Assembly: GCA_025774205.1 (NCBI GenBank)
Contig: JALGWK010000132.1
Location: forward strand, 1-8,227
Direction: 5' to 3'
From: a bacterium
GTDB taxonomy: Bacteria; Blakebacterota; Blakebacteria; Blakebacterales; Blakebacteraceae
Length of the DNA: 8,227 nt
Both the position numbers and the translations under genes were made by a program. The notes under the pieces are model-generated. The model was not told where the DNA came from and searched no databases. It saw only the letters and a program-made list of their open reading frames with translations. Below are positions 1,140 to 7,610 of this stretch, in pieces (within the stretch, counting starts at the first letter, position 1; each line of letters begins with the position of its first letter).

Positions 1140-2258
1140 TCAGTCGCTCTCCGCTATCCCCTCCAACCGCTCCCGGGCGCCCTCGGCCATCCGCGGGAAG
1201 ACCTTCACCATCAGCACCCCCAGGAGGGTGGCGCCCCCGACCAACGTGACCAGGAAGAGTACGAACATCCCCCACTGGGCCTGGACCGGAACCGAGGAGA
1301 GCGTGAAGTACGGTCGGAGCACCTCCATCCGGACCTGATCGCGGAAGATCACCATCGAGGCAATGATGATCACCATGCCGAGTGAAGCGATCAGGGGCGA
1401 TCGCACACTGCTGGTCCCCACCGCGGCGCGGGCGAAGAAGATCGTCACTCCCAGACCGAGCAGGCCGGTGATGAAGAGTGGCAGGGTGGCGCCGGTCGTG
1501 CTCCACATGGCGTTGAGGCTCTCTGCCTGTGTCAGCAGGAGACCGATGGCCGCGATCGCCCAGAGCATCGGGGAGATGAGAACCGCTCTGAACCCGAATC
1601 GCTGTGACCGGTCGGCTTCATCCTCCATCCCCCACCGGCGCAGGTAGATCCCCCGCCAGATGAGAGCGAGCCCGGCCGCTGCCAGGGAACCGCCGGTGAA
1701 GAGAAGAAAACGGGGCAGGAGGGAAGGCTCACCATGGGTGAGAACCCCTCCACCGGGATGATCGGTGTAGAGCCGGAGGAGTTTCTGCGGGCTCATGGTG
1801 AGGGTGAAGTTGTTGACGTAGATGAAGCCGATGTAGAGGAGCAGAACCCCGGCAACCGCCACGATCGGCCAGCGTGACCGCTCGCCCTTCGCGCGGCTGA
1901 ACTTGAAGTAGTAGAACCCGAGATAGGCCAGGATCATGACCGGGATCACCTGGATCCAGAAAGCGCCCATGATCACCGAGGAGCTGTAGAACAGCTGCCC
2001 GTAGAGGACCTGCACGAAGAGGAGGGGAGGGATACCCAGGGTGATCAGGTAGGAGACTCCGAGCGGGAGCCCCGAACCGAGGAAGTGACCGATCCCACGG
2101 TACTCCTCATCCTTCCTGAAACGGGTCCAGAGGTAGAGGATCACGCTCCCCAGCGTGAAGTTCATCGCGAGGAAATGCAGGGTCAGCGTCAGGTAGGCCA
2201 GCGACTGGATGAGCCAGGGCGGCAGGGCGAAGCCGAGCGGATCGGGGGAGGGGATCAT
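1140..2258 (-). CDS. CydA-like membrane subunit lacking most haem ligands
   Basis: A 372-aa integral membrane protein with about nine hydrophobic segments (roughly 14-44, 65-85, 92-117, 130-148, 181-204, 224-243, 259-278, 288-306, 328-352). By eye it resembles cytochrome bd subunit I: in helix 1 His28, followed nine residues on by Gly37, matches the E. coli CydA H19/G28 pattern. It also parallels its upstream neighbour, for example P-S-L-L near 178-181, then Arg183, and the R-P-Y motif at 315-317. The Glu that binds the b595/d pair (E99 in E. coli) is Gln103 here, no Met matches M393, and Arg183 sits near the H186 position. It is therefore probably a haem-poor structural partner, standing where CydB would be. 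Its ATG overlaps the upstream stop by 4 bases (ATGA), with a purine-rich GGAAGGGGG before it, so the two genes are translationally coupled. There is no haem-c motif. The family placement is inference from pattern, not a search. Confidence 0.7.
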   Translation of the reverse strand: MIPSPDPLGFALPPWLIQSLAYLTLTLHFLAMNFTLGSVILYLWTRFRKDEEYRGIGHFLGSGLPLGVSYLITLGIPPLLFVQVLYGQLFYSSSVIMGAFWIQVIPVMILAYLGFYYFKFSRAKGERSRWPIVAVAGVLLLYIGFIYVNNFTLTMSPQKLLRLYTDHPGGGVLTHGEPSLLPRFLLFTGGSLAAAGLALIWRGIYLRRWGMEDEADRSQRFGFRAVLISPMLWAIAAIGLLLTQAESLNAMWSTTGATLPLFITGLLGLGVTIFFARAAVGTSSVRSPLIASLGMVIIIASMVIFRDQVRMEVLRPYFTLSSVPVQAQWGMFVLFLVTLVGGATLLGVLMVKVFPRMAEGARERLEGIAESD

Positions 2259-3607
2259 CGTCCGCCCCCTTCCACGGTTCCGGTGATCTCAGGTTCTACG
2301 ACCACCTCCCCGTGTTGCGAGACGATCCAGTTGCTGAGGGCCGCCCGGTCCTCGGCGGTTCCCTGGAAGGGGGGCATGACGCCGCTCTCGTGCATGGTCT
2401 CCAGCCATCTCGATCCGAATTCCGGGGTCCATTCCTCCGTGCGTTGCCCGAGTGAGCGGTAGGCGTCCCAGGTGTGGCAGCTGACACACTGCAGCCGGAA
2501 GATCCATTCCCCGTGCTCCATGCTCATCGGCTCGACCTCTGGTCGCCACCGGGCCCTCGAGAGGAAGGGTTCCCCCATCAGGGCGGGATCCTCGCTGTCG
2601 TGCTTCCAGAGCGAGTTGGAATAGAGCACGTTATAGATCACGTAGGGCTTGCGGGCCATCTCGCGGAAGAACTCCGCTCCCATGAATCCGAACTGGGCGA
2701 TGAGGAAGAGCGCGATCGCGCCGGCCGTGGTGGCGGCCTTCGGGCGGATGGCGATGACGAGTGCCCCAAGGACGATGAAGAAGCCGCTGATCATCGCCAG
2801 CCAGAAATAGCGATTGAGGGCTTCAAGCCGCCCTCCGAACACCCCGGTCGATCCCTCCCGGAAGAGGTCGACGGTGGCCTGGGGCAGGGTCGACCAGTAC
2901 CAGATGAGAAGGAAGGGGATGATGACCGCGGCCGGCAGCACCCACCTGGCCGAGAATCGGATGACCCGGTTCCGGAAACCGTCATCGCCGTTGATCCTGG
3001 TGGCCACGATGATGCCGAAGAGCCCGCCCATCATGAACATGATCAGGGTCCTGATCAGCAGGGAGGGGAAGTAGCCGGGGTTGAAGAAGCCGGCCCAGAT
3101 GCTCGTGCTCTCGAGGCTCCAGGCGCCGGGAGTGAGCATGAAGGTGAGGATGCCGTTGATGACGAAGAGCGACCCCCAGGCGATCACGAAGTAGGCCCCG
3201 GCCAGGAAGATCTGCATCCGGCGCGAGTTCTTCTGCCAGCCGTAGAAGTAGAGGTAGAGGACCGTCAGCTCCCCGAGGAACATCACCCATTCGATCGCCC
3301 AGGCGAAGACGAACTGGTGGATCAGGAGGCTCGTTCCCTCGGGACTCGCCAGCTGGATCGAGAACCAGATGCCGACGCCCGTCACCGCTCCGAGCACGGT
3401 CGTATAGACCAGGAACCAGGTGGCGTATTTCCGCAGCCAGGCGCGGATCGCGTCACCATTCGACTGCCGGTCCGACCACACCTCGGCGATGAAGAGGAAC
3501 GCCCCGCCGCCGATGGCGAGATGCGCGATAAGCATGTGGATCACCGCGATGATGGCGACAACGAGACCGGCCCCGAGGAAGGGGATATCCCAGACCGGGT
3601 AGTTCAT
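2255..3607 (-). CDS. Cytochrome bd-like subunit I fused to a C-terminal haem-c domain
   Basis: A 450-aa protein. Residues 1-312 form eight membrane helices patterned on CydA: His24 in helix 1 with Gly33 and Glu42 at the same offsets as E. coli H19/G28/E37; Glu106 and Glu113 in helix 3 (E99/E107); Met272 in helix 7 (M393); and A-R-K-P-Y at 318-322 where CydA has G-R-Q-P-W. The segment between helices 6 and 7 is only about 25 residues, so the CydA quinol-binding Q-loop is missing. The ninth CydA helix is also missing. Instead, residues 330-450 hold a mono-haem c domain, C374-V-S-C377-H378 (bases 2474-2488), with Met411 in M-P-P as likely distal ligand. It probably takes electrons through haem c rather than from quinol. 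GGGAG lies 7 bases before the ATG. It follows cytochrome b after 37 bases and overlaps the next gene by 4. Reduction of O2 is inferred; the position of the b558 ligand H186 appears to be Arg186. Confidence 0.82.
   Translation of the reverse strand: MNYPVWDIPFLGAGLVVAIIAVIHMLIAHLAIGGGAFLFIAEVWSDRQSNGDAIRAWLRKYATWFLVYTTVLGAVTGVGIWFSIQLASPEGTSLLIHQFVFAWAIEWVMFLGELTVLYLYFYGWQKNSRRMQIFLAGAYFVIAWGSLFVINGILTFMLTPGAWSLESTSIWAGFFNPGYFPSLLIRTLIMFMMGGLFGIIVATRINGDDGFRNRVIRFSARWVLPAAVIIPFLLIWYWSTLPQATVDLFREGSTGVFGGRLEALNRYFWLAMISGFFIVLGALVIAIRPKAATTAGAIALFLIAQFGFMGAEFFREMARKPYVIYNVLYSNSLWKHDSEDPALMGEPFLSRARWRPEVEPMSMEHGEWIFRLQCVSCHTWDAYRSLGQRTEEWTPEFGSRWLETMHESGVMPPFQGTAEDRAALSNWIVSQHGEVVVEPEITGTVEGGGR
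2474..2488 (-). other. CXXCH covalent haem-c site
   Basis: These bases encode Cys-Val-Ser-Cys-His, residues 374-378 of the bd-like fusion. It is the only CXXCH motif I see in the respiratory gene cluster, so it is the sole candidate for the cytochrome c1/f function of the Rieske/cytochrome b complex. Confidence 0.9.
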
Positions 3608-3644
3608 CTTCCGGCTCCCATCGAATGGTGCACTGACTGCGCGC

Positions 3645-4748
3645 TCATGAGAGTCCTCCCCAGACGGTGAAGAGGAGGAGCCCGAGGAGGGCCACGATCC
3701 CGATCTTTGTCACGAGCCTTCCCCGGTCATCGGCCGGGATGCTCCGGTCGAGGAATGGGACCGTCAGGATCCCGATCGGGATCATCGTCCAGAGGAACAT
3801 GCCGACCGCCTCGATCTTCCCCGGAAAGAGTTTCAGGAGCTGGAACTGGGAGAGGAAATACCACTCCGGTTTGATGCCCGCCGGGGCCGATCCGAAAGGA
3901 TCCGCTTCCGGTGACAGTCCCCGCGGCCAGACCGCGGAGATCGCGACCAGCAGAGCCCCCATGCAGAGCCAGATCGGGATCTCGCCGAACATGAACTCGG
4001 AGAAGAACTTCTCGTATTTCTTCTGCTCCGGGGGAAGGGCCGCGAAGAAATCGGGTTCACTCACTCCCTGGACCTGGATGAAGAAGAGGTGGAGCCCGAT
4101 GATGGTAAGGATGGTCACCGGCAGGACCATGACGTGCAGGGTGTAGAACCGGCCGATGGTGTCGACGGTCACTTCCGGACCGCCCCGGGCGAGGTCGGCC
4201 AGCCACATTCCCAGCAGGGGCGCCTTCTCCACTTCGGCGATCCCGACCCGGGTGGCGAAGAAGGCCAGGTCATCCCACGGCAGGAGATAGCCGGAGAAAC
4301 CGAAGACGAGCGTGACGGCGAAGAGGAGCGCGCCGCTGAGCCAGGTGAACTCCCGCGGTTCCCGGTATGCCTTCATGAAGAAGGTGCTGAAGAGGTGGAT
4401 GAATAAAGCCAGGGTCATCAGGTTGGCGCTCCAGTGATGGATGCTCCTGATCACGGCCCCGAAGGGGACCTCCATCACGATGCGCTGGACCGACATCCAC
4501 GGTTCAGCCGGCCGGTAGTAGACCATCAGCAGGACACCGGTGATCACCTGGACGATGAAGAAGAAGAGTGCCAGCCCGCCCATGTTGTACCAGACCGAAT
4601 GTCTATGCTTCGGAACGACCTTGCCCTCCAGGTGTTCGTATGTTCTCCAGACAGGGAAACGCTGCAGGAACCAGCGTGAGAGCAGGCCCGATCGGGTATC
4701 GGGAGCCGGGAGCCGCTCCTCGGCTTCTGCCGGGATCTCGTATTTCAT
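3645..4748 (-). CDS. Cytochrome b (fused b6 and subunit IV) of a Rieske/cytochrome b complex
   Basis: A 367-aa membrane protein with seven helices, four b6-like and three subunit-IV-like, in one chain. It oxidises quinol at the outer face and recycles one electron through two b haems. Haem ligands are visible: H104 and H118 in helix B (13 residues between) and H205 and H220 in helix D (14 between). The 14-residue helix-D spacing is the b6-type pattern, not the bc1 type. The Qo motif P294-E-W-Y297 sits before helix F. The residue matching Cys35 of b6, which anchors the extra haem ci, is Asn55 (Y-N-M-G-G), so that haem is probably not covalently bound. The ATG overlaps the Rieske stop by 4 bases (ATGA), showing coupled translation. 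The ribosome-binding site is weak (AGGCAGG), as expected for a coupled start. A 37-base gap follows before the bd-like fusion gene. Confidence 0.93.
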   Translation of the reverse strand: MKYEIPAEAEERLPAPDTRSGLLSRWFLQRFPVWRTYEHLEGKVVPKHRHSVWYNMGGLALFFFIVQVITGVLLMVYYRPAEPWMSVQRIVMEVPFGAVIRSIHHWSANLMTLALFIHLFSTFFMKAYREPREFTWLSGALLFAVTLVFGFSGYLLPWDDLAFFATRVGIAEVEKAPLLGMWLADLARGGPEVTVDTIGRFYTLHVMVLPVTILTIIGLHLFFIQVQGVSEPDFFAALPPEQKKYEKFFSEFMFGEIPIWLCMGALLVAISAVWPRGLSPEADPFGSAPAGIKPEWYFLSQFQLLKLFPGKIEAVGMFLWTMIPIGILTVPFLDRSIPADDRGRLVTKIGIVALLGLLLFTVWGGLS

Positions 4749-5227
4749 GACCCTGCCTCACTCTCGCCGCCCCCGGTCAACCGGTAGACATGGAGGAGTC
4801 CGTCCTCCTCCACGACTCCCAGTTCTGTAAGGGGACGGGGTGGGGGGCCGGCGATGTTCCTGCCTTCGAGGTCGTAGGTGCCGCCGTGACAGTGGCAGTA
4901 TATCCGCTCACCCTCGAAGGCCACGTTGCATCCGGCGTGGGTACACTTCGAGTCGAAGGCCTTCAGGGTTCCGCTCTGATTCCGGAAGATCAGCAGACCG
5001 CGATTCCCGTACTTGCCGTTGCCGCCCATGCCGGGTTGCGAGACTTCCGCGGAAGTGATCTTCTCGACCAGGGCCCGCCCATCCTCACCGAAAGGATCGG
5101 GAGGCGCCTGGGGACTGAGGTAGCGGAATACGGGGTAGATAGCCGCCGCGAGCCAGCCGAGACCGACCGCGCCGAGGAATCCGAGGAACCCCCGTCGGGA
5201 TCGTTCTGTACCCTCCGCCTCTTTCAT
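4745..5227 (-). CDS. Rieske [2Fe-2S] protein, Tat-exported
   Basis: A 160-aa protein that carries electrons from quinol at cytochrome b to a c-type haem outside the membrane. The N-terminus has a twin-arginine motif S10-R-R-G-F-L15 followed by a hydrophobic helix to about 35, probably an uncleaved anchor. The cluster motifs are C95-T-H97-A-G-C100 and C111-H-C113-H114-G-G. Ligands are C95, H97, C111 and H114, and C100-C113 is the likely disulfide. The G-P-P-P-R-P-L loop follows. The Ser that hydrogen-bonds the cluster in high-potential Rieske proteins is Gly116, while the Tyr is kept (Tyr118), which suggests a lower potential suited to menaquinol. I chose the ATG at 5227 over an in-frame one at 5275: AGGAGA at 5235-5240 is 7 bases from it, and the Tat motif is then near the N-terminus. 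It starts 16 bases after the PhoU-like fragment and overlaps cytochrome b by 4. Confidence 0.93.
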   Translation of the reverse strand: MKEAEGTERSRRGFLGFLGAVGLGWLAAAIYPVFRYLSPQAPPDPFGEDGRALVEKITSAEVSQPGMGGNGKYGNRGLLIFRNQSGTLKAFDSKCTHAGCNVAFEGERIYCHCHGGTYDLEGRNIAGPPPRPLTELGVVEEDGLLHVYRLTGGGESEAGS

Positions 5228-5243: not shown

Positions 5244-5522
5244 TCAGGTACCCCACTCTTCGGGTGTGGCCTCACCCTTCTCTCTGAATCCTATCCGATA
5301 GTAAGGATTGATGATACTGGTCGCGACGTTCTTGATATGGGCGCTGATGCGCTTGAGGTATCTGATATAGAGGGCTGCCACGACCGCGACCCCGCAGCCG
5401 CCGGAGAGGACCCCGCCGGTCTTCAGTAGCTTGATATTCGACTCCACCAGCTTCACGACCAGTTCGTGATCCGCGAGGATCTTCCGGGCGCTCTCCTCAT
5501 CGTTGTTCATCGTCGATCTCAC
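5244..5522 (-). CDS. PhoU-like protein, C-terminal half (split gene)
   Basis: Codes for up to 92 aa from a GTG at 5522, or 88 aa from an ATG at 5510. It looks like the second helical bundle of a PhoU-domain protein: the segment Y-I-R-Y-L-K-R-I-S-A-H-I-K-N (about 52-65) and the ending N-P-Y-Y-R-I-G (72-78) are typical of PhoU-like proteins found beside Na/Pi cotransporters. PhoU proteins regulate phosphate uptake and signalling in the cytoplasm. The preceding frame carries the first half and overlaps this one by 26 bases. The only good ribosome-binding sequence, GGAGG, is 12 bases before the GTG, so if this half is made separately it is probably by coupling. Deleting 10 bases in the overlap fuses both halves into one 205-codon frame. 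It may be a broken gene, or a real two-polypeptide PhoU. Confidence 0.7.
   Translation of the reverse strand: MRSTMNNDEESARKILADHELVVKLVESNIKLLKTGGVLSGGCGVAVVAALYIRYLKRISAHIKNVATSIINPYYRIGFREKGEATPEEWGT
5497..5511 (-). repeat. 5-bp direct repeats flanking the PhoU frame break
   Basis: On the minus strand GATGA occurs twice with a 10-base period (complement of 5507-5511 and 5497-5501), separated by ACAAC. Removing one 10-base period joins the codons for E-I-D-D directly to E-E-S-A-R, restoring a continuous PhoU-like frame. Confidence 0.7.
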
Positions 5523-5871
5523 TGGGATCGAATACCTCCGGCAGGTCCTGGGCCAGTTCCACGATGTTCTTGGTGAAATCCCCGATCCGCTCGATGTCGA
5601 TGACGATGGCGGTCAGTACAAGGGCGTGATTGGCATCCGGGTTCTGCGATATGGCGAGATGAGTGACGATCTTCCGCCTGACACTCCGTTCGTATTTGTT
5701 GATCTGCCGGTCCCGTTCATAGATGTCGTATTCCAGACGGCCTTTCTCCCGAAGGGATGCAACCGCGTCGGTGAACATGATATGTGACGTCTTGAGCATG
5801 ATGATGGCCTCTTTGAAGGCTTCATCAGTGAGACTGTCCTTTCTAAACAACTGGAAAATCTGTTTCCACAT
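5497..5871 (-). CDS. PhoU-like protein, N-terminal half (split gene)
   Basis: Codes for 124 aa, all helical in appearance, with no membrane segment. It has the first PhoU bundle: a start of the form M-W-K-Q-I-F-Q-L-F, the stretch Y-E-R-D-R-Q-I-N-K-Y-E-R-S-V-R-R-K (51-67) and I-D-I-E94-R-I-G-D98-F (91-99). The last contains the ExxxD metal-binding motif of PhoU. Such proteins act on phosphate transporters; here the partner is the Na/Pi cotransporter whose gene ends 21 bases upstream. GGGAG is 9 bases before the ATG. The frame stops at TGA (5499-5497), only about half way through the usual length of these proteins (around 200-230 aa as I recall). The other half continues in a different frame. 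Confidence 0.75.
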   Translation of the reverse strand: MWKQIFQLFRKDSLTDEAFKEAIIMLKTSHIMFTDAVASLREKGRLEYDIYERDRQINKYERSVRRKIVTHLAISQNPDANHALVLTAIVIDIERIGDFTKNIVELAQDLPEVFDPSEIDDEQR

Positions 5872-5892: not shown

Positions 5893-6987
5893 CTACGTCA
5901 ACAGGAGATACAGTATCGGTATCAGGTACAGAGCAAGATACCCGACCACGATCAGTACTGTTTTTCTGCCGGACCGGCCGGCTATTTCACCTGCTTTGGT
6001 GGCCAGCCAGATCGGAATATTCTTCGCCGGATAGATGATCGCGATTCCCATGATATTGAAGGTGAGATGGGCCAGTGCCACCGTTATCGCCACTGGATTC
6101 CCGGTCGCGAAGGACGCCAGGATGGCGGTGATGGTCGTGCCCACGTTCGCCCCCATAGTATATGGGAAGATCTTTCGAACCGTCAGAACGTTGGTTCCCA
6201 CGAGCGGTACGACCAGCGAGGTCGTTGCCGAACTGCTCTGCACCGTCGCGGTCAGTACGGCACCCAGTGTAAAGCTTGCCAGGTCGTTTCTAAAGAGCAC
6301 GCGATCGAAGAGAGCTTCGATCCGGCCCAGGATTGTGCTGCGCATGATCTTGACCATCCGGGCGAGCGCGAAGAAGAGCAGCAGCAGGGCCAGGATCACC
6401 AGCGGCAACGGATGGGGGATCAGGTCCGAGATGACGTGACTGAGCGGTTCGACTACTACCTTCAGGGGACTCACCAGACTCAGTCCGCCGATCCCTTCGA
6501 ACGTCCTGGACAGCGCGACCGCGATCTTCTCGATGGGATGGAACATCACCTCAAGCGGAAACAGGATCAGCACGGCCAGAACATTGAAGAAGTCGTGCAC
6601 GGTGCCGGCGGCAAATGCCTTGCTGAATTCCCCGCGTCGCGTCACGTGCCCCATGGAGACGATCGTGTTCGTGACCGTAGTGCCGATATTCGCGCCCATG
6701 ACCATCGGGATCGCTATCCGCAGGTCGAGCGTGCCGGCAGCTACCAGTCCGACGACGATAGAGGTCGTCGACGAGGAGCTCTGGACCAGGCTGGTCGCCA
6801 GCATTCCGATAATCAGACCAGCCAGCGGATCGGAAACCGTCTCGAAGAGTCTGTTGGCGAACCCTGCCCCGGCCATCTTGAACGCCGAACTCATCAGGTC
6901 GATGCTGACGAAGAACAGGTAGAGGACGGCAAGGAAGGTTGCTACCCGGAGGATGGAACGCCAGGGACCGCTCTCAGGTGCCGGCAT
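5893..6987 (-). CDS. Na+/phosphate cotransporter (NaPi-II/Na_Pi_cotrans family)
   Basis: A 364-aa inner-membrane transporter for sodium-coupled phosphate uptake. It has the inverted repeat architecture of the family, with paired signature motifs: Q69-S-S-S-S-T-T-S76 and G98-A-N-I-G-T-T-V-T106 in the first half; Q250-S-S-S-A-T-T-S257 and G279-A-N-V-G-T-T-I-T287 in the second. These QSSS motifs form the substrate region in characterised relatives. The family normally has a PhoU domain, fused or next door; here the PhoU-like gene follows after 21 bases. An in-frame ATG at 7062 would add 25 polar residues but has no ribosome-binding sequence. The ATG at 6987 has a weak GGAA 8 bases before it and begins near the first helix, so I chose it. 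A candidate promoter at 7043-7069 overlaps the longer start and also favours 6987. Confidence 0.92.
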   Translation of the reverse strand: MPAPESGPWRSILRVATFLAVLYLFFVSIDLMSSAFKMAGAGFANRLFETVSDPLAGLIIGMLATSLVQSSSSTTSIVVGLVAAGTLDLRIAIPMVMGANIGTTVTNTIVSMGHVTRRGEFSKAFAAGTVHDFFNVLAVLILFPLEVMFHPIEKIAVALSRTFEGIGGLSLVSPLKVVVEPLSHVISDLIPHPLPLVILALLLLFFALARMVKIMRSTILGRIEALFDRVLFRNDLASFTLGAVLTATVQSSSATTSLVVPLVGTNVLTVRKIFPYTMGANVGTTITAILASFATGNPVAITVALAHLTFNIMGIAIIYPAKNIPIWLATKAGEIAGRSGRKTVLIVVGYLALYLIPILYLLLT

Positions 6988-7042
6988 GCACGTCGTTCCG
7001 TTTGTCTGGTCAGTGGAGGATTCGTTGCTCGTCGCCTGACAA

Positions 7043-7069
7043 AGTATATGGAGGTACGTCATGTGTCAG
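7043..7069 (-). promoter_or_regulatory. Candidate promoter for the Na/Pi-PhoU-respiratory gene train
   Basis: On the minus strand CTGACA (complement of 7064-7069, 5 of 6 to the -35 consensus) is followed after 15 bases by TATACT (7043-7048, 5 of 6 to the -10 consensus). The spacer is shorter than the usual 17. Transcription would start near 7036, about 50 bases before the ATG at 6987. Confidence 0.3.
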
Positions 7070-7229: not shown

Positions 7230-7610
7230 ATGGTTTCAGAGAGACTCGAGGTCTACCGCTGCAATCTCTGCGGGAACATGGTCGAGGTTGTGAAGGTTGG
7301 CGGCGGCACGCTCGTCTGTTGCGGTCAGGAGATGGAACATCTCATCGAGAGTTCGACCGATGCCGCGGTCGAGAAGCATGTGCCGGTCGTCGAGAGAGTC
7401 GAGGGAGGAACGAAGGTCACGGTCGGTGAGGTGGCCCACCCGATGGAAGAGGCTCACCTGATCGAGTGGATCGAACTGATCGTCGATGGCAACGTCTGGA
7501 CCCGGTTCCTGAATCCGGGTGACGATCCCGAAGCGTTCTTCCCGGTGGAAGGTGACGAGATGAAGGCCAGGGAGTACTGCAACCTGCACGGATTGTGGAA
7601 GGCTGAGTAA
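7230..7610 (+). CDS. dfx: Desulfoferrodoxin (two-iron superoxide reductase)
   Basis: A 126-aa cytoplasmic enzyme that reduces superoxide to hydrogen peroxide without releasing O2, typical of anaerobes and microaerophiles. The N-terminal desulforedoxin domain holds centre I, Fe(Cys)4: C11-x-x-C14 and C30-C31. The catalytic domain holds centre II, Fe(His)4Cys: H50, H70, H76, C117 and H120. The E48-K49-H50 triplet, which carries the flexible Glu and the Lys that helps draw in superoxide, is intact. All ligands are present, so it should be active. AGGGAGG (7216-7222) is 7 bases before the ATG, an excellent ribosome-binding site. The gene is divergent from the Na/Pi gene and convergent with the methyltransferase gene. 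Electrons normally come from rubredoxin; no rubredoxin gene is visible here. Confidence 0.95.

Follow-up and report, generated by a model that had tools for sequence, protein, structure and literature searches.

The 8,227-nucleotide stretch analysed here (the window; contig JALGWK010000132.1, from a bacterium of the Blakebacteraceae) carries on its minus strand, at positions 1140-5227, four open reading frames (ORFs) that probably encode one terminal oxidase, a haem-c-bearing member of the cytochrome bd superfamily (OR-C-like) fed directly by a Rieske/cytochrome b complex of its own. The genes follow one another in the order Rieske protein, cytochrome b, CydAc and CydA':

4745..5227, minus strand: Rieske [2Fe-2S] protein (Pfam Rieske PF00355, E 1.4e-12)
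3645..4748, minus strand: cytochrome b, with b6 fused to subunit IV (Cytochrome_B PF00033, E 6.7e-44, and Cytochrom_B_C PF00032)
2255..3607, minus strand: CydAc, a CydA-like catalytic subunit with a C-terminal mono-haem c domain (Cyt_bd_oxida_I PF01654, E 2.6e-10)
1140..2258, minus strand: CydA', a paralogue with the CydA fold, recognised by profile-profile comparison and predicted fold

The Rieske and cytochrome b genes overlap by 4 bases (4745-4748), as do those for CydAc and CydA' (2255-2258), and 37 bases (3608-3644) lie between cytochrome b and CydAc. An earlier reading of the bare sequence (the original prediction) had described these four tightly packed genes with exact coordinates, overlaps and gap, and its identification of a Rieske protein, a b6/IV cytochrome b, a CydA-like protein with a CXXCH domain and a second CydA-like protein agrees with the Pfam, profile and fold results. 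No c1 or f gene is present in the window.

In an alignment of CydAc and its relatives (90 rows, also used for the tree), residues H24, E106, E113, E312, R315, E316, R319 and P321 and the CxxCH motif are invariant in 90/90 rows; H24 aligns with H19 of the E. coli subunit, E106/E113 with E99/E107 and E316 with E445. The four-helix core, both active-site haem ligands and the E99/E107 equivalents thus place CydAc in the cytochrome bd superfamily. The position of the b558 histidine (E. coli H186) is occupied by Arg in every row, and only 18-27 residues remain between transmembrane helices (TM) 6 and 7, where the Q-loop would be. Since the active-site residues are invariant and both the b558 histidine and the Q-loop are gone, the O2 site appears to have been kept and the quinol site lost, and CydAc looks like an O2 reductase unable to oxidise quinol on its own. 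A CydB subunit, the third hallmark of canonical quinol-oxidising bd enzymes (qOR), is likewise missing from the CydAc/CydA' pair. The absent quinol site together with a C-terminal haem c matches the OR-C family, which was reportedly described as carrying haem c by Murali, Gennis and Hemp in 2021. Of the b595/d pair named in the original prediction, two active-site haems are still predicted from their ligands; the b595/d naming has been replaced, and the b558 ligand is no longer there.

The haem c domain (C374xxCH378, Met411) begins directly after the helix bearing E316 and R319 and matches Cytochrome_CBB3 PF13442 with E 8e-5 and 23.3 bits, slightly below the cut-off of 27. Met411 is kept in 89 of the 90 rows and is likely the sixth haem ligand. 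CydAc has 8 TM with both termini outside, its loops containing 4, 3, 5 and 2 Lys/Arg on the inside vs. 0, 0, 0 and 3 on the outside; by this positive-inside topology the haem c domain is periplasmic, the side on which the Rieske head is also predicted to lie. The predicted structure of CydAc (predicted local distance difference test score, pLDDT, 72.6) reaches Z 27-29 against solved bd subunit I; a solved structure from the CydAc subfamily was not found by sequence, the best match being the Geobacillus bd oxidase.

Searches with CydA' gave no match in Pfam or NCBIfam, the CydB family included. Profile-profile comparison relates it to CydAc with a probability of 98.6%, and its predicted structure (pLDDT 79.5) reaches Z ~28 against solved bd subunits. 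The protein has 9 TM and lacks the active-site Glu pair; H28 is conserved in nearly all rows and R183 in all. It is neither a pseudogene nor a CydB: it is a conserved CydA paralogue that keeps H28 and R183, and probably serves as a CydB-like structural partner of CydAc. The second CydA-like protein of the original prediction is therefore retained as a CydA paralogue, with the refinement that it has no active-site glutamates and a structural role like that of CydB.

Cluster boxes, four haem b ligands and a quinol-oxidising (Qo) motif identify the first two gene products as a Rieske/cytochrome b complex. The Rieske protein has a single N-terminal TM helix, a twin-arginine-like RRGFL motif and the boxes CTHAGC and CHCHGG. 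In all readable sequences the second box is CxCHGG, with Gly in place of the Ser of the high-potential box. This Ser raises the potential of high-potential Rieske proteins, and on general knowledge its replacement would fit a menaquinol-type potential. Cytochrome b has 7 TM, haem ligands H104/H118/H205/H220 in b6-type spacing and the Qo motif PEWY. The haem-ci position (55) carries N, M, A, S or T in clade I of the CydAc tree, to which the window belongs, and Y in clade II; with no Cys at this place, a b6f complex of the haem-ci type is ruled out.

Among 84,980 named genomes scanned, at least 561 relatives of CydAc were found, 80 of which were taken for mapping of their neighbours. About 40 loci, spread over many phyla, contain the Rieske/cytochrome b/CydAc/CydA' set, which occurs in two gene orders. 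Order A (Rieske-cytochrome b-CydAc-CydA') is found in the window and in a clade of 59-85% identity labelled Zixibacteriota, Deltaproteobacteria, Planctomycetota, Polyangiaceae/Myxococcota and Verrucomicrobia, and again in a second small group (L018, L041 and L055). Order B (CydA'-Rieske-cytochrome b-CydAc) is carried by Acidobacteria, Verrucomicrobia, Planctomycetes, Armatimonadetes, Lentisphaerae, Hydrogenedentes and Melainabacteria, including Candidatus Obscuribacter phosphatis. In clade I, which has 99% support in the SH-aLRT (the Shimodaira-Hasegawa-like approximate likelihood ratio test), Rieske/b genes are present in every locus with enough DNA; where one is missing, the contig itself begins within the cluster. 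Clade II has a single exception, L053, which has CydA' and CydAc; compared with its 92-95% identical relative L048 (Caenarcaniphilales; L053 3275-3313 vs. L048 8453-9986) a clean 1.5-kb stretch with the Rieske gene and most of the cytochrome b gene is missing between them. On the 90-row tree the Rieske/b linkage requires 4 changes, against a mean of about 30 when shuffled. This and the recurrence rule out a chance adjacency of the four genes, and the original prediction, for which scattered homologues would have been fatal, passes its synteny check in that the set recurs as a unit across genomes.

Pairwise distances within each of the four protein families correlate with one another, at Mantel r 0.56-0.79 for clade I and r 0.89-0.96 for clade II (p 0.0005-0.017), which speaks against free reshuffling of the genes. 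In a quick tree the linked cytochromes b group together and apart from the other cytochromes b of the carrier genomes (83% SH-aLRT). A careful tree, where L059 was left out of the linked group (its cytochrome b lies 6-8 kb away), needs one or two changes for the linkage and gives a single origin in only 26% of bootstraps, so that the linkage may have arisen once or twice. In 8/14 clade I genomes no cytochrome b besides the linked one was found.

The cluster lacks c1 and f, the subunits that bc1 and b6f complexes have as their own. Cytochrome c1 (PF02167) was found in none of 38 carrier genomes, and neither was cytochrome f (PF01333) above the cut-off, the latter giving only short sub-threshold matches, mostly inside very long frames; a separate c1/f gene elsewhere in the genome, which would have counted against the original prediction, did not turn up. 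Related Rieske/cytochrome b operons offer the most informative comparison: one group has a 7-11-haem cytochrome c directly after cytochrome b (truncated in some cases where the fetched DNA ends) and another has a mono-haem c gene there. Whether the order is A or B, CydAc stands directly after cytochrome b, and hence in the same slot as the c gene of these operons. Nitrospina and relatives also have Rieske/b-like operons, in which the c partner is an octahaem protein (PMC3578206). The window's own genome contains a second Rieske-cytochrome b operon (L120, contig C97, 2-2863), which belongs to the 7-11-haem group and has a cytochrome of 453 aa and 9 CxxCH motifs downstream; its cytochrome b group (also L121, L123, L127 and L130) adjoins the CydAc-linked one in the quick tree.

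The main alternative is that one operon encodes two separate complexes, with Rieske/b reducing a cytochrome c, either soluble or anchored in the membrane, or else a copper protein, that would then dock at the haem c of CydAc and reduce it, as in haem-c bd relatives with no Rieske/b neighbour. CydAc-CydA' pairs without linked Rieske/b make up 47 of the 90 rows and have one to eight haems c, many of them with the 2-8 haems that suit periplasmic cytochrome donors. Several carrier genomes encode extra CBB3-type c domains, and in the Nitrospinota literature cytochrome c is taken as the donor of the sister OR-N type (PMC10839748). Against this, the linked CydAc proteins all have a single haem c, related Rieske/b operons have their own c partner in the operon, the flanks of the linked loci contain no convincing c-type gene, and in 5/14 clade I genomes (the window's and four relatives) no CBB3-type c domain was found besides that of CydAc. 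On balance we regard two independent complexes as unlikely.

The cluster may instead serve anaerobes as a module for scavenging O2 or nitric oxide (NO) and not for energy conservation, or have NO as its substrate, given a two-domain desulfoferrodoxin (superoxide reductase) gene in the window (7230-7610), rubrerythrin beside the L030 cluster, the lack of haem-copper oxidases in most clade I genomes and the protection against O2 and NO that canonical bd enzymes also give; scavenging alone would hardly call for a Rieske/b Q-cycle at the front, however, and haem-copper oxidases are also present in many carriers of clade II (Acidobacteria, Obscuribacter, Verrucomicrobia), which can therefore respire O2, so that we find this quite improbable.

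For a Rieske-fed bd oxidase we propose the following model of a menaquinol (or other quinol):O2 oxidoreductase, in which a c1-less Rieske/cytochrome b module is joined to a haem-c member of the bd superfamily. Quinol would give up its electrons at Qo (PEWY): one would pass via haems bL and bH to the Qi site in a full Q-cycle, the other via the mobile Rieske cluster directly to the haem c that CydAc carries in its periplasmic C-terminal domain. From there electrons would reach the active site, where H24 and E316 bind two haems, one of them presumably haem d, and where O2, the putative substrate, would be reduced. The protons would come from the cytoplasm, since the equivalent of E. coli E107 is retained, and CydA' would stand in for CydB in a physical complex of all four subunits. 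The Q-cycle would contribute 4 charges per 4 electrons, and the non-pumping oxidase, which would draw its electrons from the outer side of the membrane and its protons from the inner side, another 4, giving a coupling of about 8 charges per O2 vs. the 4 conserved by canonical bd (PMC13189123). The original prediction of a self-contained quinol oxidase, with a Q-cycle feeding a bd-like site, is supported to this extent, by genomic evidence only.

In the window's genome (86% complete) neither a haem-copper oxidase nor CydB was found, and a PF01654 search returned this CydA only; both oxidases went unfound in 9/14 clade I genomes, which is not proof of absence because all are drafts. Cytochrome c assembly genes are present in 12/14 clade I genomes. 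Whether the cluster represents a widespread, obligate Rieske/b-bd supercomplex, the first bd-superfamily enzyme to be fed by a Rieske cluster in place of quinol, with a charge yield doubled although its oxidase pumps no protons, and a role as sole terminal oxidase in several uncultured lineages, we hold to be evenly balanced.

Several points weigh against the proposed oxidase. The case is genomic throughout. Because 47 loci have no linked Rieske/b, the CydAc-CydA' pair can work with other donors, and the gap in L053 is either a real loss or a misassembly. Correlated protein distances would also follow from shared descent, not from co-evolution alone. The genome-wide survey of cytochromes c covered CBB3-type domains, and PF00034-type or multihaem cytochromes c may be encoded besides; the structure models are of single subunits and of middling confidence. 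Menaquinone genes are patchy in clade I (MqnA in three genomes, MenD above the cut-off in three others), and neither MqnA nor MenD above the cut-off was found in the window's draft genome. This negative result covers two drafts of the window's genus with Rieske/b complexes (G000 and G001).

According to later papers (PMC8509429, PMC10839748, PMC13189123), Murali et al. 2021 distinguished three bd families, of which one alone has a quinol site. As far as these accounts describe it, the OR-C family shares with the present genes a CydA core with two active-site haem ligands, no quinol site, a haem c and a CydA-like second subunit replacing CydB, whereas in the genes described here the haem c is single and C-terminal, and the operon includes a Rieske/cytochrome b pair dedicated to the oxidase. 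Haem-c bd families were already known from phylogenomics, as the original prediction had noted, and the new element is the dedicated Rieske/b partner. Compared to b6f and bc complexes, the Rieske boxes, four haem b His in b6-type spacing, PEWY motif and b6/IV architecture are the same, whereas c1/f and the haem-ci cysteine are lacking and the oxidase subunit supplies the haem c. The proposed complex would function as the actinobacterial bcc-aa3 III-IV supercomplex does, in which a Q-cycle complex hands electrons to its oxidase via a bound haem c, with no soluble carrier; the present system differs in that its oxidase is of bd type instead of haem-copper type and has no proton pump, and in that the haem c is on the oxidase subunit and not part of bcc.

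The OR-N CydAA' of Nitrospira and Nitrospinota, sometimes found downstream of alternative complex III (PMC12342949, PMC10839748), is similar as a non-quinol bd relative with two CydA-type subunits adjoining a quinol-oxidising complex, but its partner is alternative complex III instead of Rieske/b. In Melainabacteria a complex III/IV gene combination has been described, with petB/petC beside an O2 reductase that is chiefly a type C haem-copper enzyme (PMC6349859); Obscuribacter and relatives also carry the present bd-type cluster (L062). Complex III/IV is not mentioned in the main text of Soo 2014 (PMC4040986). Cable bacteria reportedly possess CydA homologues, CytB and Rieske but no complete bd oxidase (PMC10030654), a likeness drawn from the description only. 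No description of the four-gene bd unit was found in the literature searched, which did not cover Murali 2021, and priority is not claimed.

According to a 2021 review, all biochemically characterised bd enzymes are quinol oxidases, and one with another donor was still to be obtained (PMC8509429). The present gene set is a concrete candidate for a non-quinol bd enzyme with its donor encoded beside it, which makes the question directly testable. If the proposal holds, bd chemistry would not be confined to low-yield respiration, the yield per O2 rising from 4 charges to about 8 with no need for copper, as would suit habitats low in O2 and copper, and annotators would have to read "CydA without CydB plus Rieske/cytochrome b" in metagenomes differently.

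A further CydA architecture was seen in L042, L043, L060, L067, L084 and others, in which CydA carries eight haems c (a CBB3-type domain, then a c3/c7-like multihaem part) and is paired with CydA'. This form is typical of Desulfo- lineages and of Bacteroidota/Ignavibacteria, and the fusion, found mostly in sulfate reducers and Bacteroidota, appears to be a bd relative whose electron wire is built in. L082 has two CydAc genes in a row followed by one CydA' (10001-13729), possibly a tandem duplication of the catalytic subunit.

In the window itself, the desulfoferrodoxin gene, on the plus strand close to the oxidase cluster, encodes an O2-defence protein typical of anaerobes. Two overlapping short ORFs at 5244-5871 (minus strand), each with a PhoU domain, adjoin a Na/Pi cotransporter gene (5893-7062); they could be two genes or one two-domain PhoU gene with a frameshift.

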